NCBI GenBank assembly: GCA_019633425.1
Contig: WSUB01000040.1
Location: forward strand, 62,001-126,000
Direction: 5' to 3'
Length of the DNA stretch: 64,000 nucleotides
Source: Tulasnella sp. 424
Taxonomy: Eukaryota; Basidiomycota; Agaricomycetes; Cantharellales; Tulasnellaceae
Position numbers and translations under genes: made by a program. Positions 3,971 to 50,177 of the stretch are shown one piece after another. Every line of letters starts with the position of its first letter. The stretch's first letter is position 1. Below the pieces are notes generated by a model, which was not told the origin of the DNA, made no database searches, and saw only the letters and a list, made by a program, of their open reading frames with translations.

Positions 3971-4324
3971 TCAAGGCAAGGCTTGCACATCAATGCCAAT
4001 AGCTTCAAGTGCAGCCTTCGCAGCAGCATCCCGAGCTTGTTGTTTGGATTTGCCATCCCCCGCATACACCGGCCAGAAACCTTGTACCATACGGCCGTCT
4101 GCACCCTTCACCCAAAGAACTGATCACAAAGTGTATTCCAAATCTAAGCAAACCGTGTTGAAAGAAGGATCAGAACACTTACTTTGTATATCACTCTCCC
4201 ATCGTTCGTCATGTCTCGGGCCGTACGGACGGGGCTCGCTTTCTACGTAGCCGACCTGTTGCATTGCTCTTAGATTGTGGAGGTGCATCTGATACCTGGG
4301 AGGCTTTCCGGAAGGAGATGGCAT
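3971..4324 (-). CDS. Small single-dsRBD protein (D1)
   Basis: Two exons, 4324-4183 and 4119-3971, joined over a 63-nt intron (GTAAGT...CAG, phase 1), give 96 residues that consist almost entirely of one dsRNA-binding motif. All three classical contact regions are visible: helix 1 (YQMHLHNLRAMQQVG), the beta1-beta2 loop with a canonical GPxH (GPRHDERW), and helix 2 with a basic start (GDGKSKQQARDAAAKAALEA). This is the most canonical dsRBD in the window. Its single intron sits at the same position and phase as the last intron of the other dsRBD genes here; the two upstream introns seem to have been lost. No other domain is present, so it could act as an RNA-silencing cofactor, an inhibitor, or a partner of the kinase-dsRBD proteins; that is inference. 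Confidence 0.85.
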
Positions 4325-5496: not shown

Positions 5497-5986
5497 TCAC
5501 TTCTGTCCCGTCTTGGGAATCTTACCATGCTCCTTGAACAGGTCAAGCATCTGCTTACTTGCAGCGTCATTTGCGTCAGTTCTCTTTTTAGCCCTACTCT
5601 CCTTCTTCGTTCCAACCGGTATTTTCTTGGCTAAATCTTTTGAAATCCAGGTTACTAAATCAGATAAATTGAAATCAAGACTGTGAGCTTATGTCTTCGG
5701 TTTAGTACTCGATGCATAAATAAGCCGCACCAGTCACTGTGCTAACCCAATCTCCAATATGAGGTTCACCGTCCTGGTATTCCTGATGACCAGAATAAGG
5801 TAAGCGAATACAATTCGTCGAAGCCTATGCTTATAACATACCTCGAAGTTGAATGTCGCATCTGGCACTTTCCCTTGCGAAAACGTATTCAAATGCATCT
5901 TATACTGCTTCGACACGTCCTCTGCGACATTCGCAAAGAAAAATCAGAGAGGACCTTTTCGAGTTTTATTTTGACTCACTTGTCAT
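5497..5986 (-). CDS. Small single-dsRBD protein (D2)
   Basis: Four exons (5986-5980, 5921-5842, 5782-5731, 5654-5497; 7, 80, 52 and 158 nt) with GT...AG introns give 98 residues. Helix 1 reads YKMHLNTFSQG, the beta1-beta2 loop keeps a partial GPxH (GEPHIGDW), the strand VSTVTVTW is split by the last intron, and helix 2 reads RTDANDAASKQMLDLF after a very basic loop (KKESRAKKR). The 7-nt first exon, which holds the ATG, is a family signature shared with the genes at 20140 and 23413. The last exon matches the C-terminal end of the broken kinase-dsRBD gene at 28213-30000 most closely (158 nt in both; IPVGT shared). A TATA-like box lies about 112 nt upstream. The gene is convergent with nothing and shares strand with D1. 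Confidence 0.85.
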
Positions 5987-10592: not shown

Positions 10593-13500
10593 ATGGAGAC
10601 GGCAAGCGTGATATCTTCTAGAAGTTCGAATATAGGCGGCAAAGGGAGAACCGTACTCAGCATCAACGACGACCCGCATACCCTCACAACTTTCGGCAAT
10701 CCATTCGCAGAGGACGAGAAGGAGGACACATCCTTTGCATATGTCTCTTCGCTGTTCTCCAAAGTCAAGAATACGTTCGCTACGGTTCCCTCCTCCACCA
10801 CCGCTACTTCGACCTCGACCACCGGAGGAACAGGGTCCACCTCCTCAATATCACCGGCAGCAACTGTCGAACAATCAGTGATCGCCTCTCCAAATCCAAC
10901 TAGAAAGGGATCTACGGCGACCACCAAGTCCGTGGTATCCTTCGCCTCAACGTCTCGGCAAGAGAAGGGAAAGGGCAAGACATTTGCGATCCGCTCATCT
11001 AACCCTGCTCCTCCTCTCGTCTCCCTCACACCCGTCATATCCGAACAACCATCATTCCCTGGGGATAACCACTCCGACGCTGGATCCACGAGAGGAGGCC
11101 CCAGTCCATCTCCTTATCACCAACAGCAAGGTGGAGGAGGAGAGCCATCGGAGGGACCCGGTTATGGTCATTTCATTCCAGGCTTCCAACTTAATGATGA
11201 CGCAAGAAGCATCAAAACCGTAGCTTCCGGGCGCAAGAGCGCATCAGCTAGCCAAGTTATTAGGCGGCTACGAGGCGAAGGTGGGCGTTGATTGTGATTT
11301 CCGTCATCGCGGCGGAACATTTGCTTACTCAGAACCCCTGATCGGCGCGCAGGCCTTTCTCGGGAATATTGGATGGACGACGAAACCTGTACCGAATGTT
11401 ACGACTGCAAGAGCGTCTTCTCGACTTGGAGAAGGAAACACCATTGTCGTATTTGTGGTGGGTAATGGCATGTGTACGTGTGGGGCGAGCCTAATGCTAA
11501 CGCCGTTGTTCACCCTCTAGGCCAAATTTTCTGCTCTAGATGCGCCTCCAATATCATCAAAGCCTCTAGATTTGGTGCTGAGGGCATGCTTCGTGTATGC
11601 AATCTTTGCCTTCAAAAACTGGAAGAGGAGGATGATGATGAGGACGACCGCCGAAGTGTCCTTTCAGTGTCGACCAACTTCCCTGCCCATCAACTAGACC
11701 TCATGCATACTGGGCATCATCATGCTTCACCTTACTCTACTATGCACGGTGGATTGCCAAGATCTGCCGAAACTGGGCATCTGTACTCGATCGGGGAGAT
11801 GAGGCGGAAAAGCAGTTTCGACGCCTTCGACTCCTCATCACGACCCTCGTCCCCAGCAGATGCTGAAGCATCTCACGATCAGCACTGGGAAGACTCGGCT
11901 GCGTCGCATGTAGTCCACCCTCCATTCAGACGCGGACTTGCGGAAGACGAAAGAGTACCAGCGAACCCATTGGAGGCCTTTATTTCATCATCCCCGTCGA
12001 GCGCAGTAAGACCAACTCTCATTGCGTCCCCTGTCGCTCTCCCTCCCAATCTCCCCGGTCAATCATCCATCGCATTTCCTGGCTCCCCTGGCTCGTCCGA
12101 AGGAGGTCACAGCCCTGCCCCACTCCGATCTCGCTTCAACTCTTATGCAACAGAGTACGACCCCACGACAGGGTTTGGGCGAAATCGTGTACATAGTCGT
12201 TTGGACCTGACGGGTGATCTTGGAGAACCTGGGTGGAGGACCCGAAGAGAAAGCAGCGCGTGAGTTTACCATCGTTTAGCCTCTGAGATGGTGGCTAACC
12301 TGAAATTATTGCTAGTTATGCCGCAGAGCTGAACGCTGCATCAATGCAGCACTTGCGCACGATGGTCCGACAAATGCTTGCGAAGGAACGCGTCCCTTAC
12401 CAGGGTGAATGGGAGGAGACTTTGATGAAGTTGGCGTTGAAGGTTGCTACACACCTGAAGCTCAGTCCTCGTGTGTTTGCAATGGACGCTCGCTGGTACG
12501 TCAAGATAAAGAAGCTACCAGGCGGCGCTCCTCGAGACTCCGAATACGTCGATGGAGCAGTCATCACCAAAAACGTGGCCCATAAACAAATGTCCCGGCA
12601 CATCCGTCAACCTCGTATCATGCTAGTCACCTTCCCCTTTGATTACAGTCGTGTCGAGGGGCAACTCATGTCCATCGGGCCTATCCTTGCCCAGGAGAAA
12701 GAGTACCTGAAGAACTTGACTGCTCGAGTTGCGGCTCATCATCCACACGTTCTATTGGTAGATGGCCCGGTGTCCAGGCTGGCGTTGGAGTACCTGTTGG
12801 AGAAGAAGATTGCTGTCGCTCGTTCAGTCAAGCCGAAGGCGATCCAGTTCGTCTCTCGAATCACGCAGTCCGATATCATCTCGTCGATGGATCGACTTGC
12901 CTTGGAGCCTAGGATGGGTGACTGTGCAAGATTCCGGTTGCAAACCTTCGAGCATGCGCTTATCCCCGAACGGAGAAAGACCTTCATGCGCTTCGAAGGG
13001 TGTAGTAGGGAGACGGGATGCACTATAATCCTTCGCGGAGGAGACGTGGACACGTTGAAGAAGGTCAAGAAAATTGCTAGCTTTGTCGTTTTCATCGTGC
13101 GCAACCTCAAGATGGAAACGTACCTCTGGAAGGACCACGTCCTCACGTTACCCCCTCTTACCGCAGAGGCAGCTCCCGACCCTTTCCGCCCAAGAGTTTT
13201 GTCGAGTTCCTCGATGTTTACTCTTTCTGGGTTACAACCTTCCAACTCTAGCAGTTCTTTACACCCCCCGAAGTCTGCAACATTCGCAACTCCCACCCAA
13301 GGTCGTCTGTCGGGACTCTCCATCAGCTCCCTTCCCCGCGCCATGTTGGACGAGGATGAGGATGAAGAATCACTGGACGAGGACGCCCAGCAACGCCGCC
13401 TTTCGCACAAAATACAGACCGCTATCCACCCCTACCTCACGACATTCATATCTGCTTCTGCCACCCTGAGGTTCCCTCCTCCTTATCCGGTACGGAAAAT

Positions 13501-16500
13501 GAAAGAGTTAGACGATTCTCTAGCCCGCGCCAAGAAGGAATGGCAGGAGGCTGAGGCAGCGATGATCATTAAGGAGGAGGAAACTCACAGGCAAAAAGCG
13601 GATCTCGAAGCAAGGGCGGTGTCCGCGCTGGATATCACTCTTCTAGCACCCGGGAGCAACGATGCAACCCCGACCGTGGATATCGGCACCCCGAGCAAGG
13701 AACCATCTGCGTTGCCAGGAAACGGACTTGAGGGCTTACCCCCGACAGGAGGCGCGAGTGCACTGCTCAAGTCCGCAGGTGAAACTCCAGAGCCCGACGA
13801 CGCGTCAATTGCCATTAGGACCCCCATGTCAATCTTGTCCGACTCGGCTAGTAGCTCATACTTTGATCAGCGCCGAAGCATAACTTCCGAAACGTCGCTC
13901 ATTAGCTCCGTTCTATCATCGCACAAGGGTCCAGAGACGCAACCCCCATTACCTTCGGAGCCCCTCGAGTTGAAAGAGGTGTCTTGCATTGCGCAGGATA
14001 GTCAGCTGGCAGCTCTGAGGTTTGAGCAACAGGAGACGCAACGGCTGTGGGAATGGTACCTCCGTAAGAACAAGGACGACTTTGTGGTGGAACATTACCA
14101 GAAGATCACCGTCCTTACTTCCACGGTTCCAACAGTAGAGCTCGACCTCAGGCCACCTTGCATCGCGCCGAGACTGGAATGCATCCCCTTTTACGGAGAG
14201 AACGATCATACCCTTGGTCAAGTGGTGGAAGAAGCCTGCCGGAATGCTCTCGAGAATCGACCCTGCAGTGTTAAAAGCTGCAAGGCTCCCGGAATACAAC
14301 ATAGCCAGATTTACATTCATAACGAGAGTCGTGTCATTGTCTCAACACAGCCATGGCCTGCCGGCACTGAGTCCAAGATGGTGTTCACCAGCCCGATGGA
14401 CATCGTGACGTTCAGCTTCTGCAACATTTGTGGCAAGAATTCCCCATACATCCCGATGACTGAGGAAGCCAGGAGGTATTCATTCGCCAAATTGCTCGAG
14501 CTTCACTTCTACCCTGCCGATGTACGGTTACTTCGGGGAGCCGGCTGTTTCCACAATATCTACCTCCACCACATTCGGTACTTTGCTATGAACAATGGCA
14601 TGGCCATGCAAATGCAGACCGAACCCGTCACCGTGTTCGAGATTGTCTTCCCCCCCATGCGGACACACGTCAAGCCCGAGGAGCTTCTGGAGCTCAAGAA
14701 TAGGGACTTCGCCGAAATGGATAAGAGGAGTGAGGAGTATTGGAGCTCAGTCGAGGCCCGTGTCAAGCAGTGGGAGTCCTACGTTGGTGGACAGGCAGAC
14801 ATCGCTGCGCAGGAACGAGGTGCTCCGCCTCTGGGGACAGCCGTGATGGAACTTCATGGGAGACTGGACCGGGATCGGAAAGAGATCACGGACCTTATTC
14901 GACAAGCATATAAGGAATCGACTCCCATCGACACACTCGCAGTGGGCCCGATGCGAACTGCCATCCAGAACAAGGTCGTGTTCTACGACAACGAGTTTGA
15001 CAGGTTGGAAAAGGCGTATTTCTCTTTCAGAAACTTCTTGACCACCGACAAGGAGCTCAAGAAGCTCACAGGTGCAAATTTGAAGAGGATGTACGACTTT
15101 ATCAACGGAGGAACAACGTCGGGCGTGTCAGAAGCAGAAGAAAAAGCCTCTTACCGTGTCCCTGCCGCTCAGGTCCTTGCTCCTCCCTCGTCCGCCTCGG
15201 AGAACGAATCTGCGACCGATGCCGAAAAGGCATCAGAGCCGTCTCAGTCAGAAGCGGAGATCAAACCAGTCACGGCAGCTCCAGAGCCAGCGCCACCTCC
15301 AACGGAGGAAGTCGTGGAGGCGGAGAGTGATTCAACCATTGGTGCTAGTCGTTCGCAAGAAGCTGTTTCCGCCGTTCCGGAGGGTTTACCTAACGAAGAT
15401 ACCATGGAGAAACTCATCGAGGAACAAGAAACCATTCCAGAAGAGTCCAGTGTGGTATCGAAGCTGCCCCGCCGAGCCAAACCTCAAAATTCGGTAGCGG
15501 ATCTTGTCAAGCAGTTCCAGACGGGTCCATTCAAAAACGAGCTTCCCATCTCGATGCCTCCACGATCGGGTCTTGTTTCGGAAAGCGATCAAGAGATTGA
15601 GGTGCCCGTTCGACGCCGGACCAAGAGTAAGGGTCCGACAGCCTCGCTGTCGAGGAAGCCTGGATCTGATGCAGAGCGGAACAGCTCGGCCAAGTCCACA
15701 CACCGCCAGGCGGGTTATGCGCGACGTCAACTCGGCCAGCTAAGCTCAACGAGTCGCATACCTATTCCAGTTCCTTTAAGCGTTGCCGGGGAGTCGTCCC
15801 ACAACGAGGCACCGCCGGTGCGTACGTCATCCCGACCTCGCCATGTGGCCACCACCCCACCAAAGTATGAACGAGTCGGGCGCGGACCGCTTGCCATCAA
15901 TGAGGAGTTGGACCGCAAAGGACCGCATCTTCCTAAGCATGTAACCGGCAAGTCACATTCGCGGCATGGTTCCAGTGACCGCTCCACGTCCAGAACTGCT
16001 CCCTCGGCTCCCCAATCAAGCAAAAGCAATGCCAGGCGTATACCTTCAGCCAAAGGCAGTAATGTCACCACACTGGCAAGACAGTTTGAGCGACTCTCTC
16101 GAGATAGCGAGAAGGCAAATCGCCGTTACGCGATCATGAAAGGACGAAGGGCTCGGCCTGTGGCGTCATCAAAGGCGAAGGTTGAAATATTCGATAACTT
16201 ACTGGATGCAGCGAGGGATGACTCCGAGGACGGAAGCGAAGCTTCAAGTGAAGCGGACGACGAGGACGAAGGCGATGAATTTGGAAAGCGCAAAGGCTCT
16301 CCAGACCAGCAGTCGCTAACCGACATCGTTCCAGAAGACTCCCAGGCACCTCCAGAACCAGAACGGCTCAAGATCCCTGACCCAACACTGCCTGGTTCGG
16401 AGCGTGACGATTATTTCGACCTTACTTCCCCAACTGTAGAGAGGCCGCCACCTCTCGAGCCCGAGAAGCGCTTGCCACTTGCAGTCGTTCCTGGCACGGA

Positions 16501-18363
16501 GATTATCACTTCTCGGCCCGCTTCACCGTTGCCAGATATTAGCCCAGTTGCTCCGATCAGTTCGTCGTACCAGTCGAATCATTCGGAAAGCGAGTACAGC
16601 GTTGGTGGTGGAGGCGAACGCCAGTCGGTGATAAACACCATGTTTGGCTACTCTGGTTTCAGCTGGATGCGAGAAGCAACCCCAAGCTTCGTACATTTGA
16701 AATACCCCGCGTAAGTACCTACATTTCCCCTTCGGATTCTGGAGACTCATCGGACGTTTTAGTCTGCCCTCCGAACATCTCTTTGAGGAGGCTCCAATCG
16801 CCGTTCGGGAGGACGAGCCCACATCCATCATCGCTTTCACTCTTCAGTAAGTTCCAATTAACAGCAGCGGGACCCTGTCGCTGAAGGAGTTCTGGTTGCA
16901 GGTCTCCAGGGTACCTCGCTGCTTTGACCAAGACCAAAGTCACCGTCAAAATGTCCGATCGACCTGAGGCGTTCATGCCAGACAACGATGGCTCCGTCTC
17001 GGACTCGCAGTCATGGGGAATTATTAGCCTTGACGGAATGTCCGACGCCGTAAATGAAATTCGGGAACCCCAGACAATCACCCATCCTGTGTTCCGTAAG
17101 TCTCTCGAGCGCTCCGACTTTTCCATCACGTTTACAATTCCGCATTAGATTTCGAGAGTGGCGGTGTTCAGATCTCGTGCACCGTCTTCCATGCCGAGCA
17201 GTTCGATGCACTAAGGCGAAGTTGCTTCTGTGAACAAAGTATGATCGAGTCTTTGGCTCGTTGCGTGAAATGGGACGCCAGTGGCGGGAAATCGGGATCC
17301 GCTTTCTTGAAGACGCGAGGTATGTGTTAATGTTCGATCCCTTTCGTCCAGGCTGACCGATCTTGCCGCTAATTTTCCGCAGATAACCGTTTCATCGCAA
17401 AGGAGCTATCACGAAGCGAGCTGGACGCCATGTCAAAGTTTGCCCCCAAATACTTCCAGTACATGTCGGACGCTATCTCTGCGAAGGTTCGCTTCGCGCT
17501 CGATTTCCTACGCGAGGCATGTGTTCACCATTGCATTTTAGCGACCGACCCTGCTTGCCAAAATCTTTGGCTTCTATAAGATTGTGTACAAGAACCCGGT
17601 ATTGGGCAAGACTGTCCGTATGACGCTCCTCGTCATGGAGAATCTTTTCTACGATCATAAAGCTTGTCAGGTGAGCACAATGGTTCCCCCGAACTTATCA
17701 ATATACTGAGCTAGTGTATACCAGGTGTACGATCTGAAAGGCTCATCTCGAAACCGCCTTGCCCCGGTTACTTCGTCGAATCCTAATCAGGTTTTACTAG
17801 ACGAGAACCTTCTCAACAGTAAGTCTAACTCGGTACCTACAGGATCTCGATTGACTTGGATTTCTCGTGAAAGATTTGCACTTGGCACCTATGTATATTC
17901 GAGAACACTCCAAGCGAATCCTTCGAAGCGCACTTTACAGCGACAGCCTCTTCCTCGAGGACCTCAACGTGATGGACTATTCGCTATTGGTAGCTGTGGA
18001 TGAGAGCAAGAAGGAGATAATCGTAGGAATGATTGGTATGTGTTACTCTGCGGGAGCCGGATTGTCGACTGATAGCCGGCGTTGTCTTTAGACTACATTC
18101 GCACTTACACTTGGGACAAGAAGCTAGAGTCTTGGGTCAAAGAGTCCACTTTCCTCGGAGGCGCCGGCAGAGGGGAGCCTACCATCGTAACACCAAAGCA
18201 ATACCGGACACGATTCCTGGGCGCCATGGAGCGATACTTCTTCTTGGTTAGTGGCTGCACATATTCAAAAATGGGCTTATTACTGACTCTCTTCAAGGTG
18301 CCGGATCGATGGATGAAGACGACGTACACCCCCGAGGAGGATCCAGCGAAGGACGAGTGGTGA
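10593..18363 (+). CDS. FAB1: 1-phosphatidylinositol-3-phosphate 5-kinase (Fab1/PIKfyve)
   Basis: A protein of roughly 2,350-2,400 residues from about a dozen exons. Order of domains: a low-complexity Ser/Thr head; a FYVE zinc finger at 11380-11610 (TCTECYDC, the [10 protein letters not shown] ligand motif, then CSRCAS and CNLC), which binds PI3P on endosomes; a chaperonin-like CCT domain encoded around 12340-13140 ([27 protein letters not shown]); a long disordered, acidic/Ser-rich middle within one 4.4-kb exon; and the PIPK catalytic domain at about 17380-18363 ([54 protein letters not shown]). It makes PI(3,5)P2 on late endosome/vacuole membranes. The start is the first ATG of the coding exon, 290 nt after CSN2. 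Introns are 50-75 nt; those flanking the FYVE finger are at about 11280-11366 and 11460-11520. The stop is TGA at 18361-18363. Confidence 0.93.
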
Positions 18364-20139: not shown

Positions 20140-20611
20140 ATGTCTCGTGCGTCTAGGCGTCCTTTGGGCTCTGCGATCTCATTTGCTTACCGCATTTTTC
20201 ATCGCCAGCCAACCCATCCGAGCAATACCGCATGTTACTCAATACCATTGAGCAGGCTGGATACGCCACGTTCGATGTCAAGGTTAGCTCGTTGAGGAAC
20301 CCACTTTCGACAAGATAGCTAACGCTGTACATACGGCCCTGCTAGGCTGAAGCTGCTCCGCCCGCCAACAAGCCGACATGGGTGGCCGTGGTAACAGGTA
20401 TGTCCGACTTTGCAAACAACGTCAGATTTTAGGTTAACGGGTGTACGGCTGCTCAGTCACCGGCGTTGCTCCTGTACTGTCAAGGTCTATCTACGTCGGT
20501 ACCTATTGCCAAGGCTTCGGGTCGACAAAGAGCTTGGCGACCGACGCAGCGTCAGAGCAGATGCTTCGTCTGTTCGCAACTTATGGCGTTTACCCTACTA
20601 AAAAACGGTAG
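20140..20611 (+). CDS. Small single-dsRBD protein (D3)
   Basis: Exons 20140-20146, 20209-20282, 20346-20397 and 20457-20611 (7, 74, 52, 155 nt; phases consistent) give 95 residues. The protein is a dsRBD fold by pattern: helix 1 YRMLLNTIEQAGYATFDV, strands around TWVAVVTVTG, and helix 2 GSTKSLATDAASEQMLRLF. The GPxH loop needed for minor-groove contact in classical dsRBDs is replaced by PPANKPTW, so RNA binding may be weakened or lost. Exon sizes equal those of D4 and of the C-terminal domain of the intact kinase fusion. A TATA box precedes it. It is followed by the shared 3' repeat and then by the scrap of a kinase gene. Confidence 0.85.
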
Positions 20612-23412: not shown

Positions 23413-23884
23413 ATGTCTAGTGCGTCTCGGCACCGTTTGTAATCTTCTATTCTGCTGGCTTACCGCATTTTCCAACGACAGGCAACCCGTCTGAACAATA
23501 CCGTATGCAGCTCAATACTATTGCGCAAGCCAAATACGCCACCTTCGAAGTCAAGGTTAGTTTGTTGTGAAACTCACCTCCGATAAGATTGCTGATGATG
23601 GAAATGTGGCGCTTGTAGACCTACCAGACGGCACCCGCCAACAATCCGACATGGGTGGCTACGATAACAGGTATGTCCGACTGTATAATCAATGTCAAAC
23701 CTCGAACTAACGCGCTTATGGCTGCTAAGTCACCGGCATTGCTCCTGGCCTGTCAAGGTCTATATACGTTGGGACCGTTTGCCAGGGCGTTGGACCGTCA
23801 AAGAGCTTAGCGACCGACGCGGCGTCGGAGCAGATGCTCCGTGTTTTCGCAGCTTGTGGCGTTGTGCCTACTATGAGACGATAG
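23413..23884 (+). CDS. Small single-dsRBD protein (D4)
   Basis: Exons 23413-23419, 23482-23555, 23619-23670 and 23730-23884 have exactly the sizes of D3 (7, 74, 52, 155 nt) and give 95 residues. Helix 1 is YRMQLNTIAQAKYATFEV, the strand is TWVATITVTG, and helix 2 is GPSKSLATDAASEQMLRVF. As in D3, the GPxH loop is lost (APANNPTW). The third intron ends in AAG|T, an ordinary AG acceptor. D3 and D4 are recent duplicates with their promoters; both have stayed open while other repeat parts decayed, which suggests they are still used. D4 lies about 810 nt upstream of the intact kinase-dsRBD gene on the same strand. Confidence 0.85.
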
Positions 23885-24695
23885 ACGCTCGAATTTGAAT
23901 CGGCTTATAGTGTAAATTCAGGTAAGAACTTCTTTGTGTCTGGTCTTAGCAATGTAGATACATCTGAAATCCCCGTCTTCCAGGCTGTTTGTTCTTCGTT
24001 ATATTAGCTGAGATACCCCCTCCTTAATTCTTTGGACACTTGGACAATACCCATGCAGCGTGTAGCTTAGATATGTATTCCCGAATGTCTTGTATGAATA
24101 CTATGGTTGTTATTTCTTGGTTCTCTCTGGGGATCTCGACATGTAGGGCCGATCGGAAGAAGGGCGGTTATTAACGTCCAGCAGACCGACTTCAGGAGAT
24201 TTAAGCAGCAACGACTCTGATGACTAGCCTAACAGGGTGCTCTGATTTTGTGTTGCTGGCAAGCTAGTATTTCGCGTTGGAAATTAGGACCTGCGAGGAG
24301 CGCGAAGCTCCTACCAAGCGGGAAACGAATAGATGATCGATTCTTAACGAAATGAAAGAAACAGTGCCCTCAGGGGTTCCTTCTTGACATCCATTTTCAT
24401 ACCCGTGAATTCAATGCCCTCCTCCAGTAACGCTGGTACCTATCAGGGCATATGGACAAGGCTGGGAGACGTTCTCGCAGAGATGGCGTGCAAAGATATT
24501 CAATCTGCTTATCCAGCATCATTCTCAATAATCGCATTTGAGACATGGAGAACGATGGGAAACATAAGTTGTGCACGTTGGTGGCACGAGTCTGTGGCGC
24601 TACCCGTGAGACCGACATGCGAGCGGACTCTTGCACCATCCCCCCCCCCCGTCGTATCCTATATCTCCGCCAGGGTATCTGAGGGTATCGGGGTC
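23885..24695. repeat. 3' repeat of D4 and upstream region of kinase-dsRBD gene
   Basis: Collinear with 20612-21411 and partly with 27700-28212. A frame that is open in the other copies (around GDMENDGK at 28070) has a 1-nt deletion and a stop here near 24510-24542. This argues that it is 5' flanking or leader sequence and not a conserved exon. A run of about 11 C lies near 24641. Confidence 0.65.
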
Positions 24696-26555
24696 ATGGG
24701 CTCATATCTAAGTACGAGTATGGTTATCCAAGGAGAGTTTGACTCGCAAGAGTCCCGCCAGGGTGATTCAGATTCAGTCGGGGGTGCTGCTGAGGTATGG
24801 TCACCACTTTAATCGCTGAAGTCTTGCCCCCAGATGGCTGGCCCATTTTTACTCACGACATTCATTTTATAAGACCGCACGAAAAAGAAGGAGGGTGGAG
24901 TCGGACAATGTCGCAGGGAATTCCAATTCATTCAGAATAATCGATGAACCTTCGGTCCACCCTGGCGCTCTATCCGGGGAGGACGCCGGAGAACTTGAAG
25001 GAACCCTGGTAGTACCTGGTACTCCTATTCTGGCTGGTGGCTACGCAAACATCTTTCAGGGCACATGGAGAAGCCCCGATGGCACTCCAATGGACGTTGC
25101 CGTCAAAATCCTAAAGCCGGTCCAGCCAACATCGATGTCACTTAGGCTTAGCCTCATCACTTCACAGCGGATAAGGGAAAAGGTGAGAAACGCCACCAAA
25201 ATTAGACTTGAACTCGCTAAACTGTTACTACTACATCCGGAACGCAGCGCCTGAAACGTGAAGTCGCAGTCTGGACCCGGATCGTTCATCCAAATATCCA
25301 CCCTCTCCTAGGATTTAGGACCCAGCCCGAACCTTGTATTGTCAGCCCATGGTGTCAGAATGGAAGTTTGGTGAGCTATCTCGACAACAATCCCAATCTC
25401 TCCCGGCCCAAAAAGATCCAACTGGTGAGTTATTCAACATCACAGTTTTCCTTGTGTTCACTCCATGTCTTTTAGCTAGAACAGATTACGCATGGACTTG
25501 CTTTTCTTCACTCTCAATCACCTCCTATCTGCCACGCTGACATTAAACCCGAGAATGTCCTCATAAACGACCTGTGCGAGGCAACATTATCCGATTTTGG
25601 TTTAAGCCGTGTCATCCAGGAAATCGATATCTCGACCGGTTTTACTACTGGGGATGGACCTAAAGGCAGTCAGAGATTTATGGCCCCGGAGCTTTTCGAA
25701 GAAGACAATCCGAAGCCTACATTAGGAACCGATATTTACGCTTTTGGTGGACTGGTGCTGGCGGTACGTCTTCAAACCGGGGTGTTGAATAGCAACATTA
25801 AGGGCTGGTTATCAGGTCATGAGCGGGAGCCCTCCGTTTGCTCACATCAAGGCACCCGCAAAAGTTATGTTTCGTATAATTAGCGAAGAGCACCCGAAAC
25901 CCGAGGAGCATCCAAAATTAGAGCGAAATGACCCACTTTGGTCTCTAATGGCTCTATGCTGGGCCCGCGAACCTAAGATGCGTCCCACAATAAGCGATGT
26001 CAAGGTCGAAGTTAGTACCCTTGGTTGCAACAATGATATGTCGAGAATTAACCGAACTGACCTTATTTCTGCCTTTTGAATTTAGCTAAAGAGCCGAAAC
26101 GAGCCGACTCAACCCACCACCGCTACCCCGTTGGTCATCACGTCTGTATCGGGCGACCCATACAAACTATACCGGATGTATCTCAATACCATTGAGCAAC
26201 GTGGATACGCCACGTTCAAATTCGAGGTTACTTTGTTGGTAAATCTACCTCCAACAATATTGCTGACGCTGTACATACGGCCCTTGCAGACTTTGCCGAC
26301 CGGACCCACCCACAATCTGACATGGGTGGCCACGGTAACGAGTACGTCCGACTCTGCAATCAATATTAGACTTCAGCCTAACGGGCGTGCGGCTGCTCAG
26401 TCACCGGCGTCGCTCCTAGCCTGTCAGGATTTTTACCCGTCGGGATCACTTTACAAGGCGCTGGACCAACAAAGAACTGGGCGACCGACACGGCGGCGGA
26501 GCAGATGCTTAATCTGCTCGCAACTCATGGCGTTGAGGCTGTTCCAAGAATGTAG
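24696..26555 (+). CDS. TKL-like protein kinase fused to C-terminal dsRBD (KD5)
   Basis: Eight exons (24696-24794, 24874-25182, 25248-25424, 25476-25763, 25816-26010, 26086-26226, 26290-26341, 26401-26555) keep one frame and give 471 residues. Residues 34-41 are a basic, NLS-like TARKRRRV. The kinase spans about 82-356: glycine loop GGYANIFQG (88-96), VAVK with Lys111, a likely helix-C Glu141, catalytic loop HADIKPEN (Asp217, non-RD), DFG at 235-237, MAPE at 264-267, and the late CWAREPKMRPT block typical of TKL-like kinases. Residues about 380-465 are a dsRBD: YRMYLNTIEQRGY, a GPTH loop (retained), TWVATVT, and GPTKNWATDTAAEQML. Its last two exons (52 and 155 nt) equal those of D3 and D4. If the intron at 26011-26085 is retained, translation stops after 23 more codons, giving a kinase-only form. 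The closest known layout is PKR, with reversed order and unrelated kinase class; dsRNA sensing is inferred. Confidence 0.85.
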
Positions 26556-27699
26556 CCGCTCGAATTCTATCACCTTCTTACGTCAAGTCAGGTAAGAGTC
26601 TCTTGGGGCTTGATTATTAGCAAAGTAGACACGCTAAATCTTCGTCTTTCAGGCTTTTTATTCCTCGTTCTTGGGTGAGAAACCCCTCCTGAATTGTTGG
26701 ACACTTGGGCAGTACCCACGCAGTGTGTAGCTTAGATAGGTACTCCCGAGTGTCTTGTATGCGTACTCTGGTTATTGTCTACTTGTTCTGAATGGAAATC
26801 TTGACGCGTATCAAGGTCGAAAGAGGGTGACGATTCCAACAGGTGACCTCTAGGAAATAGCATCAACTCTGATGACGTAACTGAAGAGGGTGCCTGAAAT
26901 CCGTGTTGGTGGTCGGGTGGTACGATGTATTTCACGTTGGATATTAGGACTGGTGAGAAAGATGGAAGAGAATATACCGCCGATGCTTAACTAGGTGAAA
27001 TACGATAGTACCATTCAAAGGTTTCTTCCGAATATATGAAACACTTGGGAGCGGTTTGCGTCCAAGGCATACATGGGGCGACTTCACCCAAATTTGTATG
27101 AGAAGCTAATTCTACTTACAGGGGGATGCGATCAGAAGAAGTCGTCGATCCCCCTTGGTTCGAAGGAGAAGTGATCGAGACAGCAAGTTCTGGGGAATTC
27201 CGGAAGAAGACCCTCATGGATATAGCCATAATTAGAGCTGTAGTGAATCTCGGAAGGCGCTAGATAGATCCCCAAGGCGGATATATGTCTTTTGACTTGT
27301 TGATTCGGACTGACTAGGGCCGAGATACTTGTATCCGCATACCGGAGGTTCTTCTTTGAGCCCTACAAGGAAATAAACGAGTTTGCGACTTCTTCACATT
27401 TTAAGAATATGGCCTACCGGTGGGCTGAAGGACCGCAGCTGCCTTTATACCTCTGTCACCGCCGGAAACGTAACCCGTTCGCTGCGCATTCATCTCGAGG
27501 TAATTTCTTCCAAAAGTTACCATAAATTCGAGTAAAATAGCCCGCGCGACGAGCCGTTCATGCCGTGAGTCCACCGGATCTCGTAGCACTGTATGGAGGA
27601 CCGTGGACTCTCCATTGCTTCCAGGTGTGCGCGGCAGTCGCTAGATGGATATACGACTTCCTTGATCGATGAGTGGGAACATTTTCATTTCTGAACATG
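26556..27699. repeat. Tail region after KD5, repeated after KD6
   Basis: The first 480 nt carry the 3' repeat blocks described for D3. From about 27050 the region is collinear with 30290-30955 (shared AGTTCTGGGGAATTCCGGAAG near 27185 and 30430, ATACTTGTATCCGCATACCGGAGG near 27326 and 30573). Open frames on either strand differ by indels between the copies, so no conserved protein is supported. Confidence 0.6.
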
Positions 27700-28212: not shown

Positions 28213-30000
28213 ATGTCTGAAGATATCGAGATGATGGACTCATATCCAAGTATAAATATTTCCAAGAGAAAGGGCGTTACCCAGGGAGAGTTTGACCCGC
28301 AGCCTGAGGAGGCCGGCCAGGGTGATTCGTATTCAGTTGGGGGAGCTGCTGAGGTACGGTCACCATTTTAGACGCTGGGGACTTACTTCCAAATTGCTGG
28401 CCCATTTATACTCACGAACTTTACTCATTAAGACGGCACGAAAAAGAAGGAGAGTGGAGTCGGACAATATCGCAGGGAATTCTAGTTCATTCGAAATGGT
28501 CGATGAACCCTCGGTCCACGCCGGCGCTCCATTCGGGGAGGACGCCGGAGAACTTGAAGGCAATCTGGTGGCACCTGGTACACCTATCCTCTCCGGTGGT
28601 TATGCAAACATCTTTCTGGGCATATGGAGAAGTCCCGATGGCACTCTAAGAGACGTTGCCGTCAAAATCCTAAAGCCGATCCGGCCAACATCGATGTCGT
28701 GCAGGTATGACCTCATCACCTTACAGCAGAGAAGGGAAAAGGTGAGGGAACCCACCAAAATCAGCCCTGAAGTCGCAAGGCTGTTACTAATACGTCCAGA
28801 ACGCAGCGCCTGAAACGTGAAGTCGCAGTCTGGACCCGTCTCGATCATCCGAATATCCACCCTCTCCTGGGGTTTAGGACCCAGCCCGAACCTTGTCTCG
28901 TCAGCCCATGGTGTCAGAATGGAAATTTGGTGAACTATCTCGACAACAATCCCAATCTCTCCAGACCCGACAAGATCCAACTGGTGAGTTCTTCCATCAC
29001 ATTTTTCCTTGTGCTCACTCCAGGTCTTTGTAGCTCGTACAGACTGCGGGTGGGCTTGCTTTTCTTCACTCTCAAGCACCTCCTATCTGCCACGGGACCT
29101 AAAGGCAGCCACAGATACATGGCCCCAGAGCTATTCGAAGAAGAAAATCCGAAGCCAACATTAGAAACCGATATCTACGCTTTTGGTGGACTGGCACTGG
29201 CGGTAAGTCTTCAAACCGGGGCGTTGGACAGCAGCCTTAGGGCTTGGTTATCAGGTGATGAGCGGGAGCCCCCCATTTGCTCAAATTAACATACCCGCAA
29301 AAGTCATGTTTCGTATACTGAACGAAGAACACCCGAAACCCGAGGAGCATCCAGAATTAGAACGAGATGACCCACTCTGGTCTCTAATCGTTCGATGCTG
29401 GGCCCGCGAACCCAAGATGCGTCCCACAATAAGTGATGTCAAGGTCAAAGTTAGTGCCCCCGGATGCAACAACGATATGTCGAGGACCCACCGAGCTGAC
29501 CTTGTTTCTGCCTGATGAATTTAGCTCAAAAGGCCCCATTGGGACCCTGCTTTTTCGTTTTTCACTCGCACCTCGTTTTCAAGGGGCCCCGACGAGGCCA
29601 TGCAGTTTCGCTCGCTTTTGAACGATTTTGAGCAGAAATGGCGAGTGGCGGGATTCATGTTTGACGTATGTTGTAGATATTGGCCTCGACGCATTGTATC
29701 TGACTCCCTTATCTGGATATCAGGCTTATCACCGCGGCCCAGATCACTGTGGAGAGTGGGTTAGCAAAGTGACTGGTGTGCCCCATTTATGCACCAAGCC
29801 CTAAACTGAAGTCGCGTGCTCATAGAATTTCTTTTGATTTAGTAACTTGGATCGCACGTGATTTAGCCAACAGAATACCGGTTGGAACGGCGAGGGAGGG
29901 CAGGGGTTCCACTAAGGCTCAAGCGACGGACACTGCAAGTAGGATGATGCTTGACCTGTTCGGAAAACATATGTCTGCCCCAGGACGCGAGAAGAAGTGA
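28213..30000 (+). pseudogene. Broken kinase-dsRBD fusion gene (KD6)
   Basis: Paralogue of KD5 with matching exons: 28213-28353, 28433-28741 (309 nt, as in KD5), 28807-28983 (177 nt, as in KD5), then an exon from 29034. In that exon, right after CH of the expected HADIKPEN loop, a 119-nt stretch present in KD5 is missing. The loss removes the catalytic loop, the DFG motif and the activation-segment start, shifts frame and creates a TAA at 29100-29102 after about 231 codons. Downstream exons are still open in the other frame (APE region, CWAREPKMRPT). The C-terminal dsRBD exons at 29525-29665, 29724-29775 and 29843-30000 keep family sizes (141, 52, 158 nt) and a GPDH loop. That dsRBD resembles D2 more than D3-D5. 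A truncated N-terminal product or an RNA role cannot be excluded. Confidence 0.8.
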
Positions 30001-34700: not shown

Positions 34701-37700
34701 CTATAACCAACCAGGATGGTCCTGCTGCTTATAGCCACACTCTAGGCACCGGTCGAACGTCTTGGGGAGGTCATCCACCACCGCCTCCTCACCTGGCATC
34801 CCAACGAAGCAGCGAATGGGGGCCTCTCCCCGAGGACGACGGAGAAGTTAGTGTATCGGGAATGAGCACAGACCTGGAAGCCGACGCCGATTTGGAAGAA
34901 GACGATGAAGGAGATCATACTTACAACTCTGCTCACCGCCGTCCGCCGAGCAAAGGTCTTCAAAACGGTCAATCTCTCAGCTCGAGCGGTCTGTTACCAG
35001 GTCTTGCGCCTGAAGTTCGGCCGCATAGCGAGAGGACGGCGAGGTACAGCGTTGGAAGCAGTATCGCCGATGAGAACGAGTGGGAGACGGACGAGAGTGG
35101 GAGGAAGTACCGAAAGCCTGCGCCCGCGCGGACTGATGCGGAGGCTACGGACGCCAGTGAGATGAGCGACTCTGATCTTGATGAGGTCCTTGGAAGGAAG
35201 CAGAGCGTCCACGAGGTTGAAGAAGAGAGGACTACTGCTATCATACTCGCCGAAGAAGGAGAGGGAGTTATCACGGCGAGCAGGGCTGAAAGTTTAGTTG
35301 GCTTCGAGGTTAAACCTGGTACGTGTGAAGTGATTACACGGAAAGGCATTTTGCTCAATGGTCACTTCTAGGTACCACGCATCTTGTCATCGAGAGCACT
35401 ACCACACCAGATCTCGCTCCTGCCTTTTTGGACAATATCTTTACGTTCCTCCCTCCAACACTCTTGGCGCTCGACATCTCGGGGAATCAGCTCACTTCGC
35501 TCCCTATTGGCCTCGCTGAATGTAGCGCCCTTGAAGAGCTCAAGATCGCATACAACCCACTCCGCACTCTTCCGGCTTGGTTAGCGAACCTGCAAAGCCT
35601 GCAGGTCCTCATGGCCGATTCGATCGAATTGGAGTTCCTTCCAAACGAGCTGTCTGCGTTGTCGGGACTCAAGCTGATCAGCTTGAGAAACAACAACTTG
35701 CATTCACTTCCGGCGTGGCTCTGCCTGTTGAACGGAATCGAGTGGCTGCTGGTGGATAACAACCCGTTCGTCGCACCTTGGCGGCCAATCATAACGCCAC
35801 TGCTAAACGCCATCCCGTCTACGCCTGGACTCACTCCTCGGACACCATTCTCCGCTGTTTCTGGGGAAAGCACGTTGACTGGGGACTCGCTAAGCCCCCC
35901 GCAATCTGCTATCCCTGGCCGAGGGAGGGACGATGGGCTCGGCGACCAGACAATTACGCTTCCAACACGTTTGTTCCCCAATTCTGGCTTAACCCCGACT
36001 TCTTCAGCTTCGTCCCAGCCTCCTTACCACATTTATACACCATCCGTTTCCGGCTTCCCGATGGCTCCCACTCCAGATTCCGGTCTCTCGGCACCTTCCC
36101 CTCTCGGCGTTGGAACTCCGTCCGCCCTTTCGGATATGCCCTATCCGGCTTCAGCAACATCGTATTTCCCTCCAACCCCCATCCGGGCGACGACCAGCTC
36201 TGCACCTCCCAAAAATAGAAGGACCTATGCTGATGGCGAGAGCGTCGAAGTCTTACGTGTCCCTCCGATGCCTCCGCCGCCGCCAAATGCTGCTCCGCGG
36301 TTCCCTCCGGGGCTCGATGGGGCGCAAAGCGACTCAGAGAGGAAATCGTTGAAGAAGATGAAGAGCGCCGATGATGTCAGGAAGCGCGCTCGTGCAGGGT
36401 CCGTGTCGGCTGCTGTCGCTGCAGCGTCCAACATGTTCAAGACGACAACCCAGCCCGTTCCGGCCCTGCCCTCGGCTTCTCCTATGCCTTCGCCCATGCC
36501 CTCGCCCGGGCCGAATCGTTTGCCATTGGGTCCTGATGCAACACCAGAACGAGGACAACCTCCAAAGTTCATGAGTCTGGCTATGCGAAGTGGGAGTTCT
36601 CTCAATCACTCTCCCAGCCACCAGCGTGCTGCTCTGACCAACTCGCTTTGGGAACCACCTGAGCCTGGTCAAGTCACGGAGTCCCCTGTCGACATGAGCG
36701 ATTCGAGTCCGAGGACGGAAGCACGGACCTACAATGGACCTCCGCCATCGAAGAGCAGTCAATTCACGTCACCAAGTCAAGATGATGACACCTTGTCGCG
36801 GGAAAAGGGTCGAAAGTGGGGATTCTTAAAGAAGATGAGCATGGGCAAGATGCGCGCTGCTGCAGCTGCGCCCAGTGCGCAAGAAACGCTGCGATCAAAC
36901 AAGTCCATCAAAGTCAAGCGTCCGTCAACTGGCCAAGGAAGTCGACCACCGTCCGAGTTTGGTCAGCATGCACCTGCTCGTCAATTTGGCCAGGTGACAA
37001 ACTCGGTCGTGGACTCCACATCCTTCCATACTCTTCAAGATGTTCGAGGCGGGCTAGCACCTTCGGGTAGTACCAGCAGCCTAAACGGCGGTCTAAAGCC
37101 CGTGGATTTGGGATCCCCAACCTTGATCCCACCTCCAACAACCACTCGCTCGGGCCGAAGGCGAAGCTTCCTACCCCTCGATGGACCTCCACAGTTGAAC
37201 ATACCGATTGACAAGTCACCTTTGATGCCGACCATGACACTCGGTGGGCTCGGGAACGGACCTGAACGACCCGAAATTGCTATCTCCCCGTCTGAACCTT
37301 CTGTAAGAGGAACTGGCTCCAACCCTTCGTCCGCACGGCAATCTCAGAATTATCAAGAGATCTTGATCAATTTGCAGCCTGAGCAGATGATCAGTGCTCT
37401 ACCCTCCCCGGCAATGAACGAGGCGTATGCAAAGGCCCTACGGATGGTCATGGCCTACTTGCGAGATTTGCTCGATCTAGGCGGCTCGATCCCGGCTCCT
37501 CAGGCTGGTGCAGTTCCTGTTCAATCGGTGCCACCTTCGGTCGCAGGATCAAGCAATTCCTCGCCAATGCCAGACCGCCGGCGTCGTCCGACGTTGGTTG
37601 GCGGAGAGGCTCCCACCGACAGCGTCTTCAGCGCAACTTTCGCTCCACCGAGTCGTGGTCTGCGCACCATGCCCTCGACAACAAGTCTTCGTGGAGGACC

Positions 37701-39387
37701 AACTGCTAGCACTTACACAGCCGACAGCGGAGGTTCAGGAACAGGTGGTGGAACCGAAGAGAGGAAGGTCAAGGACGACAAGGCGAAGCGAGCTTACTTG
37801 GTCAAGGAAATCGTCGAGTACGTCTTGATGATTACTGTCACCAAGCTTTCTGTCTAACATATTCCGACTTACAGTACGGAACGGACATATGTTAACCAAC
37901 TGAAAGAGCTAATCGAAATCTACATTAGCCCTTCCGCTCAACCAACTGGCTCACTGGCTGGCAGAGGGGAAACCATTGTCCCAGTCGCCGAGAGGAGAAT
38001 TGTTTTCAACGGATTAGAAGCTTTGTTCTCGTTCCACATGAACAATTTCCTTCCCGCTTTGGAGAGAAAAGCGGCGCCATTGATGTCGAGGCAACCAGGG
38101 TCTGAAGTGGATGGAGAGATGTCCGCTCGCGTAGCCCGCGACGTGGCTCAAGTGTTTGTTAGCCATGCGGCCTTTATGAGGATGTATTCAACCTACATCA
38201 AGTGAGTCTTCCCGGATCTACTATGATGCATGGCAAATACCGACTCCTCTCCCATAGCAACTTTGATAACTGTCTTTCACGCTTGAAGCAATGGACCACT
38301 GCCCCGCCTCCGTCAGTGGCGCCTATTGCGGCGGCTCCGAACTCCAGCACGGCGCATGTCGTTGGACTTGGTTTGTCAATGAGCGGCATGGGGGCTGTGT
38401 TGCCTCCTGACACTCCAACCGCTGTTTCGCCCTTGTCGAACAGTCAACGCAAGAGAATCAAAGAGTTCTTAAAGAAATGCCGCCGGAACCCAAAACATTC
38501 CCAGCTTAATTTGGAGGGTTACCTGCTTCTACCTGTCCAACGAATTCCTCGATATAAACTCTTGGTAAGTCAGCGTCGTTTCCTACCCTAATGACGCCGC
38601 TGACCGTGTCCGAAAGCTCGAGGGACTTGTTAGCAGCACTCCACCACGACCGGACTCGTACGATGACCCGATCGAGAAGGCACTCGAGGAGATCTCGTCT
38701 CTTGCTCTCAATATGAACGAAGGAAAGAGGGAATCGGAGTCCCGGAAGAAACTTGTCCAATGGCAGACCAGGATTGGAGGCAGCAGCAAGTTCCCTAGCC
38801 CCCTCGTCCAGCCTCATCGGTAAGTTGGAGTGATTTTTAAAGCTCTTCTTAGCTAACGACATCTTCTCTTTCAGTCGCTTGATAATGGATGGCTACCTTC
38901 AACTATCTCGTGTTGTCCGGAAGAAGGGGGAATACTGTCAATCCGTCAGTGTGACTGGTGAAACGGTCTTGATCCAAGTCGAGTGCCTTGAGCCGGAGAA
39001 CACACCGCGGCAACTCGTCGCCATTCTTTGCAACGACCTGTTGGTTTTGTGCAAGGACCCGTCTCGAGGCCAAGATAAGAACGCACAAGTTGATCTCTGG
39101 GCCGTTTTGAGGATGCAAACATTACCTCAGCCAGCCAGTATCGTCAATGGGCACAGTGAGTAATTCAAAGCACGATTGTCGGTCAGTATAATCTAACAGC
39201 AACGCGTAGCTCTCCGTTTGGTCGACCACAAGGCCATCATGTACTTCTCAATGAACTCGACGTCCGACGCCTTGACATGGTCAAGAGGTAAGATTCTAGC
39301 CCTGCGGACTAGGAACGTCGCTGACTTTCAGCCGCCGTCCAGCTATCAACATGCATATCCCAGCAAACCGCACTTAGCCTGCGATAA
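31782..39387 (+). CDS. LRR-DH-PH domain Rho guanine nucleotide exchange factor
   Basis: About 2,170 residues. A first exon 31782-32028 (82 codons, phase 1, donor GTGAGT) splices in frame to an acceptor at 32560-32561; the alternative start is ATG 32540, eight codons before that acceptor. The N-terminal half is Ser/Pro/Gln-rich and disordered. Leucine-rich repeats are encoded at 35450-35770 (LLALDISGNQLTSLP, LEELKIAYNPLRTLP, LKLISLRNNNLHSLP). Then comes a long disordered linker, a DH domain at 37870-38640 (TERTYVNQLKELIEIYI; RRNPKHSQLNLEGYLLLPVQRI, then PRYKLL) and a PH domain at about 38880-39380 (MDGYLQLSRVVRKKG; LVAILCNDLLVLCKD). The VQRIPRYKLLL helix is the signature of Dbl exchange factors, which load GTP on Rho/Cdc42 GTPases at the cortex. 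The last intron is about 39288-39333 and the stop is TAA at 39385-39387. The target GTPase is not predictable here. Confidence 0.88.
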
Positions 39388-47983: not shown

Positions 47984-50177
47984 ATGTCCGAGGAACTATC
48001 CATCGCAATTGGTCCCTTCGATCCCGAAAAGATCACTCCTCCTGAACTCGGCCCTGATGTTTATGGTCTCCACGGCAAGAATCTCACTGAAGAGCACCTA
48101 GCTACCAAGGTCAGCGGACCTGGCGGCACCATCATTCCTCCTACTATGCCTCCCAATTTTGCTCAATCCAGAGCAGATGATAAAAGTGTCCCCGGAACTG
48201 TCGGCATTCTTGGGGCTGGAGTCGGAGGGCTCTACGCGGCGATGATGCTTCACTCTCTCGGCATTCCATTCGAAATCCTCGAAGCGTCCAATAGGACTGG
48301 AGGTCGGGTCTTCACCTTTCCATTCTCAGAGAAAAAGCACGACTACTACGTACGTGTGTTGCCTACGTGATTGAATTGCTTACTAATCGAGAGGCTCGAA
48401 CTCTGTTCAGGATGTGGGAGCTATGAGGTTTCCCAAAGAACCAGCCATGCGGCGCCTATTTCATCTCTTCCATTCACATCAGCTCAACTCCGACGGAAGA
48501 CATGTCGCCTCAAAGCTGATCGAATACAAGTTTAGCTCAGATGAATCCTTCCGTTACTTCAACCAGCGCAGAATCAGAGCGAAGGATGTCGAGCAAGAGG
48601 ACCAGTTTGGATTCGCTGCGACCGGAGTTCCTCGTCAAGACCTGACTTACGGTTACGAAGCTATCCTCGATGACACGTTCGGGCCGTTTGTTGAAGCACT
48701 GAGGAACGACTTGAAGCCTCCGGGCAGCAGGAGGGGGTGGCAGAGGATGATGCGCCAAGACAATCACTCGGCTCGGTCGTATATGGCCGTTGCCTGTAAC
48801 CTTCCCATGCCCACAATTCATTGGTGCGAGACCATGGATGCTTCCACAGACTCGTACGACAAAGCCTTCTCCGAGGCCTGCCTGGACATGGTTGCCTTTG
48901 GTACGAAAGAAACGAAGTGGCAGTGTCTTGAGTAAGTACTCTTATTTAATCACTTTCCTCTTGTCCGCTTGACTTACCGGGACCCTCAGTGGTGGATCGC
49001 AAGTGCTTACCGACGCCATGACCAATTTCATCGAGCAACACAGTCGTGGCTCGCTGAAAAGGAATACACGCGTCACCGGGCTTCGCACTATCCGAAACGT
49101 CCGTGACCATGTCGTTGGCATCAATGTCCAAACGGGAGAATCGACACGTGCATTCCGGCACGTCATCTCGACGATACCGTTACCCGTCTTCCGCACGCTT
49201 GACCTCAACGACAAACGTCTCTTCAATATCCAACAGACAAATGCTCTGCGAGAGCTCTCGTACAGTGAGGCCGTCAAGATCGGGATCAAATTCAAGTCGC
49301 AGTGGTGGGCGGCGGAAGGATTAGATATTGTTGGGGGCCAGAGCTACAGCGATACGTGAGTCTCTCGATCGATTTTGGAATGGGTTTGATTATTTATGGA
49401 TTTCCTGCGCCTAGGAATATTCGGACAACCGTTTATCCCAGTTACGGACTCCAGGATCCCGACAAGACAACCGTCCTGATCGCCAGCTACGCGTGGACCT
49501 CCGACGCCGGTGCTTTGGCTGCTCTTGTCAGCCCAACCGACGCAGCTCGTAGAAGGCTCAGAGAAATCATTGACTCCGGCGGTGAACCCCCCGAATGGCT
49601 CAAAGATCTCGCCAAGTCGGAAGAGGAAGTCCGCGAACGGCTTAAAGATCTCGTTTTGCGAGACCTCTCCCTGGTCCATAACGTTGATATGAACATGCTG
49701 AAAGCCGAATTTGACGAAATGTTCCCTTGGGCGTGGCAGAACGATCCCCTTACCCAAGGTACGAGGTCCATGATGGCTTCCGGTTGCAGTATGCTAATCA
49801 CTTGTTCATAATCCCCCTTAGGGGCCTATGCTTTCTTCGGACCCGGACAATTCGGCCGGTTATATCGGAGCTTGGCCCGCCCGGTTGGCGGTTATCATCT
49901 ACACATGGCTGGTGAGGCATTGAGCGTACGCCACGCATGGATTGTTGGCGCTCTTGACGCGAGCTGGCGAGCTGTCTACGAGATTGTCTTACACAGCCAG
50001 GACAAGGAGCTATACAAAAAATTCCTGCGCTTGTGGGGTAAGAACGAGGAATGGATCCCATCCCCGCACTTCTTCAGACATATTGGGATGGAGGGCCGCA
50101 AATGGGGCGAAAACGCTGAAATCGATCTCGACCTGATGATGCTCAACATCTTAGCCCATGATTCTGAAGATGATTAA
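47984..50177 (+). CDS. L-amino-acid-oxidase-like flavin amine oxidase 1
   Basis: Five exons (about 47984-48350, 48412-48931, 48990-49356, 49416-49758, 49823-50177) give about 650 residues. After an 70-residue head comes the FAD-binding Rossmann motif GILGAGVGGLYAAMML with its acidic strand end (FEILEAS), and the RTGGR GG-motif. Next are DVGAMRFPKEP and the substrate-domain block GYEAILDDTFGPFVEAL. HVISTIPLPVFRTLD and the C-terminal FAD signature GYHLHMAGEALSVRHAWIVG follow. The layout fits the L-amino-acid oxidase branch of flavin monoamine oxidases, which oxidise amino acids to keto acids with release of ammonia and peroxide. No signal peptide is visible, so it is probably intracellular. The start is supported by the matching codons in the two truncated copies upstream. 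It is tandem with oxidase 2. Confidence 0.82.

Follow-up and report, generated by a model that had tools for sequence, protein, structure and literature searches.

Does a fungus encode a protein in which a kinase is joined to a double-stranded RNA-binding domain (dsRBD), and, if so, is the union confined to one locus? The question is raised by kinB, a gene in a stretch of 64,000 nucleotides of Tulasnella sp. 424 (contig WSUB01000040.1; C335:62001-126000 of a genome assembly of 46.8 Mb in 448 contigs), hereafter the window. Tulasnella is an orchid-associated fungus (Agaricomycetes, Cantharellales). A preliminary description of the window had proposed a "PKR-like" kinase with a dsRBD at its C terminus. 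Sequence comparison indicates that kinB is a real gene in a small Tulasnella family that combines a TKL kinase with one C-terminal dsRBD-family domain. Our preferred reading of this small family, that its tails are exchanged as cassettes and that the dsRBD is a swappable sensor driving kinase pairing and signalling, is held tentatively, at slightly less than an even chance.

The kinB gene and its two domains

The gene consists of the following parts, all on the plus strand:

24696..26555, plus strand: kinB, kinase-dsRBD gene of eight exons and 471 amino acids in a single open frame; GenBank FRC04_007761 fuses the same kinase and tail
24696-24794, 24874-25182, 25248-25424, 25476-25763, 25816-26010, 26086-26226, 26290-26341, 26401-26555, plus strand: the eight exons, the last including the stop
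24874..26010, plus strand: exons 2-5, with RKRRR and the kinase domain (residues about 87-356), from Pfam PF07714 and PDB matches
26011..26085, plus strand: kinase/tail intron, GTTAGT...CTGAC...TTTAG, its position conserved in close paralogues
26086..26151, plus strand: linker LKSRNEPTQPTTATPLVITSVS, in frame; similarity to kinC, the sister gene downstream, ends near 26093, and similarity to stand-alone dsRBD genes begins near 26152
26152..26555, plus strand: dsRBD-family domain in three exon pieces (26152-26226, 26290-26341, 26401-26555), from the family profile and predicted fold

The eight exons, single frame, and 471 residues of the preliminary description agree with our gene model, and the automatic GenBank model FRC04_007761 (P0001) has, independently, the same kinase-to-tail junction at intron 26011-26085. 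P0001 uses an alternative donor (26239) at the next intron, which adds four residues to a tail that is otherwise equal; it begins only at MDVAVK, without the N-lobe, and is 37 residues short in exon 3, which encodes 59. At the position of the first ATG of kinC (24676-24698) kinB reads GTA; the next in-frame methionine, at 24696, is usable as a start. FRC04_007761 is already public as a hypothetical protein; therefore, what is new is its recognition, its recurrence, and the exchange described below.

It is very unlikely that the kinase and the dsRBD are two separate genes and their fusion an artefact of reading. Without splicing, the kinase frame does stop within the intron (26077-26079), and stand-alone dsRBD genes (dsA and dsB, below) adjoin kinB; however, the fused copy is without the start exon and upstream region common to dsA and dsB, the intron recurs in paralogues with its branch-like site and phase, and both FRC04_007761 and a second database protein, P0007, join kinase and dsRBD. 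The two-gene reading was dropped on the shared junction and the recurring intron. The junction rests on comparison and gene models, and on these grounds the presence of a kinase and a C-terminal dsRBD in a single gene is confirmed.

The catalytic residues listed in the preliminary description (K111, HADIKPEN, DFG, and APE) are all found in the 471-residue model. The kinase matches Pfam PK_Tyr_Ser-Thr (PF07714) with an E-value of 1.1e-36; in a PDB sequence search RIPK3 comes first (4.4e-27), and RIPK2, RIPK3, and RAF fill the best 60 of 2288 matches. Because these are its best relatives, we class the kinase by sequence as TKL, RIPK/RAF-like, and non-RD, much as had been proposed. The 50 Foldseek matches listed are RIP kinases, MLKL, TNNI3K, and one GC-A kinase homology domain. 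The RKRRR stretch preceding the kinase, which has similar counterparts in several paralogue models, resembles a nuclear localisation signal.

The Pfam comparison proposed with the preliminary description fell short for the tail on its own, that is, dsrm scored 15.2 bits (E 0.034; cut-off 23) and DND1_DSRM reached E 0.01; profiles built from the family were positive. A nine-member family profile matches the dsRBDs of PKR (2.9e-7), TARBP2 (2e-6), ADAR2 (2.3e-6), and Staufen (2.6e-5) in the PDB, and a profile of eight distant stand-alone relatives, from which the nearest kin of the kinB tail were excluded, matches the kinB tail with E 3.5e-11 and 40.2 bits. A chance dsRBD-like stretch was dropped as an explanation, since shuffling 11 tails 200 times each (2200 shuffles) gave at most 8.8 bits. 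Among relatives, the stand-alone protein L054a clears the Pfam dsrm cut-off (24.9 bits) and dsB approaches it (21.2 bits, 4.5e-4); the tails of kinC and C290kin, a paralogue introduced below, match nothing in Pfam at E up to 1. In the structure model of P0001, residues 239-324 are predicted to fold as helix-strand-strand-strand-helix, the dsRBD fold, with a predicted local distance difference test score (pLDDT) of 56-80 in ten-residue blocks, in a model whose overall quality is a mean pLDDT of 45.5 and a predicted template modelling score of 0.28. The dsB model has helix 1 predicted as a strand (low confidence), and dsRBD-containing chains fill its top 14 Foldseek matches (lowest E 0.019). Profile similarity and the predicted alpha-beta-beta-beta-alpha fold both place the kinB tail in the dsRBD superfamily, as the preliminary description had supposed.

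These comparisons make it extremely unlikely that kinB is the fungal orthologue of PKR, an eIF2alpha kinase. The same two kinds of domain are paired, and the PKR dsRBDs are the best PDB match of the family profile; nevertheless, both the sequence and the Foldseek relatives of the kinase given above lie elsewhere, and its dsRBD is single and C-terminal. We dropped the eIF2alpha-kinase identity on the RIPK/RAF relatives among the matches listed and the position of the dsRBD. Thus, of "PKR-like" the pairing of domain kinds stands and the kinase type and the number and placement of dsRBDs do not; the reversed domain order had been recognized correctly. Taken as a whole, the earlier interpretation is partly supported, and the tandem array, the adjacent stand-alone dsRBD genes, and cassette exchange are absent from it.

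Recurrence of the layout and proposed exchange of the tails

Nine close kinase loci of the genome were examined (kinB, kinC, C102kin1, C102kin2, C102kin3, C290kin, C439kin, C121kin1, and C121kin2), and a dsRBD-like tail is found in the first six. In four (kinB, C102kin1, C102kin3, and C290kin) the kinase model is intact and the shared intron leads into a dsRBD in frame; the catalytic loop of C290kin reads HADIKPGN, and C102kin3 requires a less usual splice and continues in frame beyond the dsRBD domain. Three of the paralogues lie in tandem as a second array of this kind (C102:56001-73850; L042, L043), in which the dsRBD-like tail differs from kinase to kinase. Judged by these close paralogues, the kinB fusion is not a one-off.

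The genome has at least 225 kinase matches; the dsRBD count covers the nine close loci and 16 further ones (L016, L017, L019, L020, L023, L026, L029-L031, L033-L035, L037-L040), and in the latter no dsRBD was found within about 1.5 kb on each side (family profile, E up to 0.001). At the same threshold, the family profile run over all open pieces of 42 genome stretches matched only the window array, C102, C290, and a stand-alone gene in C439. Among 120 of 191 database matches listed for the kinase, only P0001 and P0007 carry a dsRBD, an undercount because the models of P0004 and P0024, both close paralogues, stop short of the tail. P0007 has 53% kinase identity and is probably an assembled spliced transcript, since its 506 residues on a 1793-base contig leave little room for introns. 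Its residues 380-490 as a query retrieved only P0007 itself among 273 candidates, weak evidence of rarity in a search that needs shared five-residue words, and its tail had no match in the Tulasnella sp. 424 genome.

In the window kinB sits among repeats, with dsA and dsB upstream and kinC downstream:

20140..20611, plus strand: dsA, stand-alone dsRBD gene of four exons and 95 amino acids, identical to P0122 (FRC05_006177, Tulasnella sp. 425)
23413..23884, plus strand: dsB, stand-alone dsRBD gene of four exons and 95 amino acids, identical to P0121 (GenBank FRC04_007760)
26093..26872, plus strand: putative exchanged cassette, kinB-kinC DNA identity 0.55 or less per 60-nucleotide step
28213..30000, plus strand: kinC, sister of kinB with a broken kinase; 119-nucleotide gap relative to kinB
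29525..30000, plus strand: kinC tail, in frame after the same intron; a dsRBD-family domain different from that of kinB, from the profile of stand-alone relatives
5497..5986, minus strand: ds5k, stand-alone dsRBD gene and nearest match of the kinC tail in the genome (45%); unmatched in Pfam up to E 1
3971..4324, minus strand: ds4k, stand-alone dsRBD gene; P0123 from Tulasnella sp. 427 is 95% identical

Outside the cassette the kinB and kinC loci are 0.67-0.95 identical per 60 nucleotides, both between 24173 and about 26093 and beyond about 26873 (the kinC gap aside). Within it, kinB resembles the dsA and dsB loci (0.60-0.86 per 50 nucleotides, introns and 3' flank included) and kinC resembles the inverted ds5k at 5.5 kb (0.52-0.80 per 50 nucleotides). 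At the protein level, kinB and kinC are 83% identical in the kinase versus 38% in the tail, and C102kin1 and C102kin3 79% versus 24%. The kinase tree supports kinB+kinC+C439kin (87/97) and C102kin1+C102kin3 (100/98), and the approximately unbiased test rejects as sisters the tails of kinB and kinC (p 0.008), of C102kin1 and C102kin3 (p 0.012), and of C102kin1, C102kin2, and C102kin3 (0.017), as well as a single clade for the six fused tails (p 0.0006); single tail placements are unsure because some tails are long branches.

Close relatives of some tails are found among stand-alone genes: the kinB tail is 53% identical to dsA and the C102kin1 tail 61% to stand-alone C425a, and the kinC tail, nearest to ds5k, is 87% identical to P0125, itself perhaps part of a fused gene. 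The tails of C102kin2, C102kin3, and C290kin have no close stand-alone relative in the genome (best 41, 32, and 38%). We read these tails, with a history apart from their kinases and partly matching stand-alone dsRBD genes, as products of cassette exchange; that kinases acquired stand-alone dsRBDs is the simpler reading of its direction.

A stand-alone dsRBD gene lies immediately upstream of a kinase at two related loci (the window array and C439), which suggests a partner, a competitor, or a donor pool. Genome searches located more dsRBD-like copies in C439, C425, C128, C65, C42, C184, and C124 and in C335 from 39.8 kb on; these are exon-level matches, some weak, and not a gene count. A search of the whole genome with PF00035 by reading frames matched only C395, which is not to be read as absence, because introns split the small dsRBD genes and such a search misses them. 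Small dsRBD-like genes (about 90 amino acids, several with a tiny first exon) are clustered, for example in C335:39.8-58.8 kb, and on such exon-level matches point to an expansion in Tulasnella.

Elsewhere in the window, long open frames at 11466-16711 (plus strand) contain a FYVE-like stretch (below the Pfam cut-off) and a TCP-1/Cpn60 domain, presumably as in Fab1/PIKfyve; leucine-rich repeats occupy an 842-codon open frame at 35329-37854 (plus strand); 2.8-kb tandem repeats, up to 87% identical, extend over 39.7-48.0 kb, with DUF7330 in both of the two open frames tested; and a duplicated stretch at 48198-52413 has a flavin amine oxidoreductase domain in frame 51275-52258.

Constraint on the tail and its possible ligand and role

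Several observations weigh against the tail as a working sensor. No recognisable dsRBD is found in three of the nine close kinases (C439kin, C121kin1, and C121kin2); kinC is broken as a kinase, because the 119-nucleotide gap removes the catalytic loop and DFG, with its dsRBD still in frame; and C102kin2 has dsRBD pieces, a decayed kinase, and an unsure frame. The ratio of nonsynonymous to synonymous substitution rates (dN/dS) of the kinB tail is 1.21 (0.72-2.10) against dsA and 0.78 (0.44-1.46) against dsB, the tail has 38 amino acid changes where neutrality predicts 35.1 (P 0.21 for at least 38), and a rough neutral model leaves its frame open by chance in 18%. At the presumed RNA contacts, its helix-2 motif K-N-W-A-T has one of three basic residues, and the GPxH loop is altered or absent in the tails of C102kin2, C102kin3, C290kin, and P0007. 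With intron 3 read through, the kinC frame stays open, and a pseudokinase-dsRBD protein is possible.

The near-neutral change of the kinB tail and the decay of kinC and C102kin2 would suit a dsRBD that is a recent, functionless passenger, neutrally drifting after recombination in the array, and tandem arrays do recombine readily. This explanation is unlikely: one and the same intron precedes the tail in six of the nine close paralogues, P0007 too has the layout at 53% kinase identity, and the family-core positions of the kinB tail are spared, with 3 of 17 changed versus 42 of 93 overall (P 0.010, or 0.017 and 0.031 when the cut-offs are stricter). For the C102kin1 tail the same sparing gives P 0.04 and 0.12. 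Six comparisons of the kinase parts give dN/dS 0.28-0.41, which indicates constraint, and the stand-alone dsRBDs give 0.30 (0.16-0.54) for dsA-dsB and 0.67 (0.23-1.73) for dsA-C439. On these values, either selection on the kinB tail has been relaxed or the tail is diversifying outside a conserved core.

We take the RNA-contact residues of dsRBDs to be the GPxH loop and KKxAK. The loop is retained in the tails of kinC, C102kin1, and kinB, where it reads GPTH, as the preliminary description had noted; this favours RNA as the ligand, and the loss of basic residues in helix 2 and the altered loops elsewhere urge caution. A doubtful alternative is that the tail is a protein-protein dsRBD (TARBP2 dsRBD3 or Staufen dsRBD5 type) that pairs with a stand-alone dsRBD or with RNA interference (RNAi) proteins and makes no RNA contact; the three retained loops argue against it, as does a helix 2 with K plus R/K in C102kin1, C290kin, C102kin3, and P0007.

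In the preferred reading, then, the C-terminal dsRBD would most likely act as a swappable sensor whose ligand is RNA (structured or double-stranded) or a stand-alone dsRBD protein, much as PACT and TRBP act as dsRBD partners of PKR. Binding would pair two kinases for trans-autophosphorylation, and the pair would then pass the signal on, not to eIF2alpha but to another downstream target. That kinB binds RNA, is active as a kinase, and serves against viruses is in each case an inference; defence against RNA viruses or transposons is a plausible setting, and Tulasnella strains harbour dsRNA partitiviruses (PMC9098641, in excerpt). Possible, though less probable, is a broader picture, an RNA-sensing repertoire of RIPK-like kinases in Tulasnella in which a genomic pool of stand-alone genes supplies one C-terminal dsRBD after another; fungi would then have a PKR-like layer of immunity within the cell that evolved independently, with exchangeable, fast-evolving sensors and perhaps dsRBD-only partners or decoys.

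Comparison with known systems

Among the matches listed in searches of open-licence papers, none described a fungal kinase that carries a dsRBD. The modular effector-domain repertoires of fungal NLRs are comparable (PMC9815663, PMC10197012, in excerpt); however, the kinB protein has no NACHT or NB-ARC domain by Pfam, and a swap of a C-terminal dsRBD with stand-alone genes is unmentioned in the excerpts of the two papers. The expanded Agaricomycetes TKLs, that is, the large number of TKL kinases in Laccaria (PMC2838846) and the tyrosine kinase-related FslK lineage (PMC3937382), both from excerpts, are also alike: kinB belongs to the same or a neighbouring kinase group with lineage-specific expansion, and its nearest database relatives are Tulasnella kinases. 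Unlike kinB, they have no dsRBD partner mentioned in the excerpts, and "double-stranded" is absent from the main text of either paper.

RIPK3 and RIPK1 with ZBP1 likewise link a RIPK-type kinase to nucleic-acid sensing. There the sensor and the kinases are separate proteins and ZBP1 senses through a Z-alpha domain, whereas the dsRBD of kinB lies within the kinase protein.

PKR (EIF2AK2) shares with kinB a kinase and dsRBD in one chain, a dsRBD that is closest to the family profile among PDB entries, and the logic of a sensor plus a kinase. It differs in having N-terminal dsRBDs and an eIF2alpha kinase domain, where kinB has a single C-terminal dsRBD on a TKL kinase; the number of PKR dsRBDs itself varies: mammals have two, and pufferfish genes encode three, one, or only part of one (PMC2291453, in excerpt). 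If the kinB tail senses RNA, fungi have evolved a dsRNA-responsive kinase on a non-PKR scaffold, its sensor exchanged like a cassette. It becomes testable whether fungi, in addition to RNAi, sense RNA inside the cell and signal in response; Tulasnella suits such a test, because strains with dsRNA partitiviruses are known.
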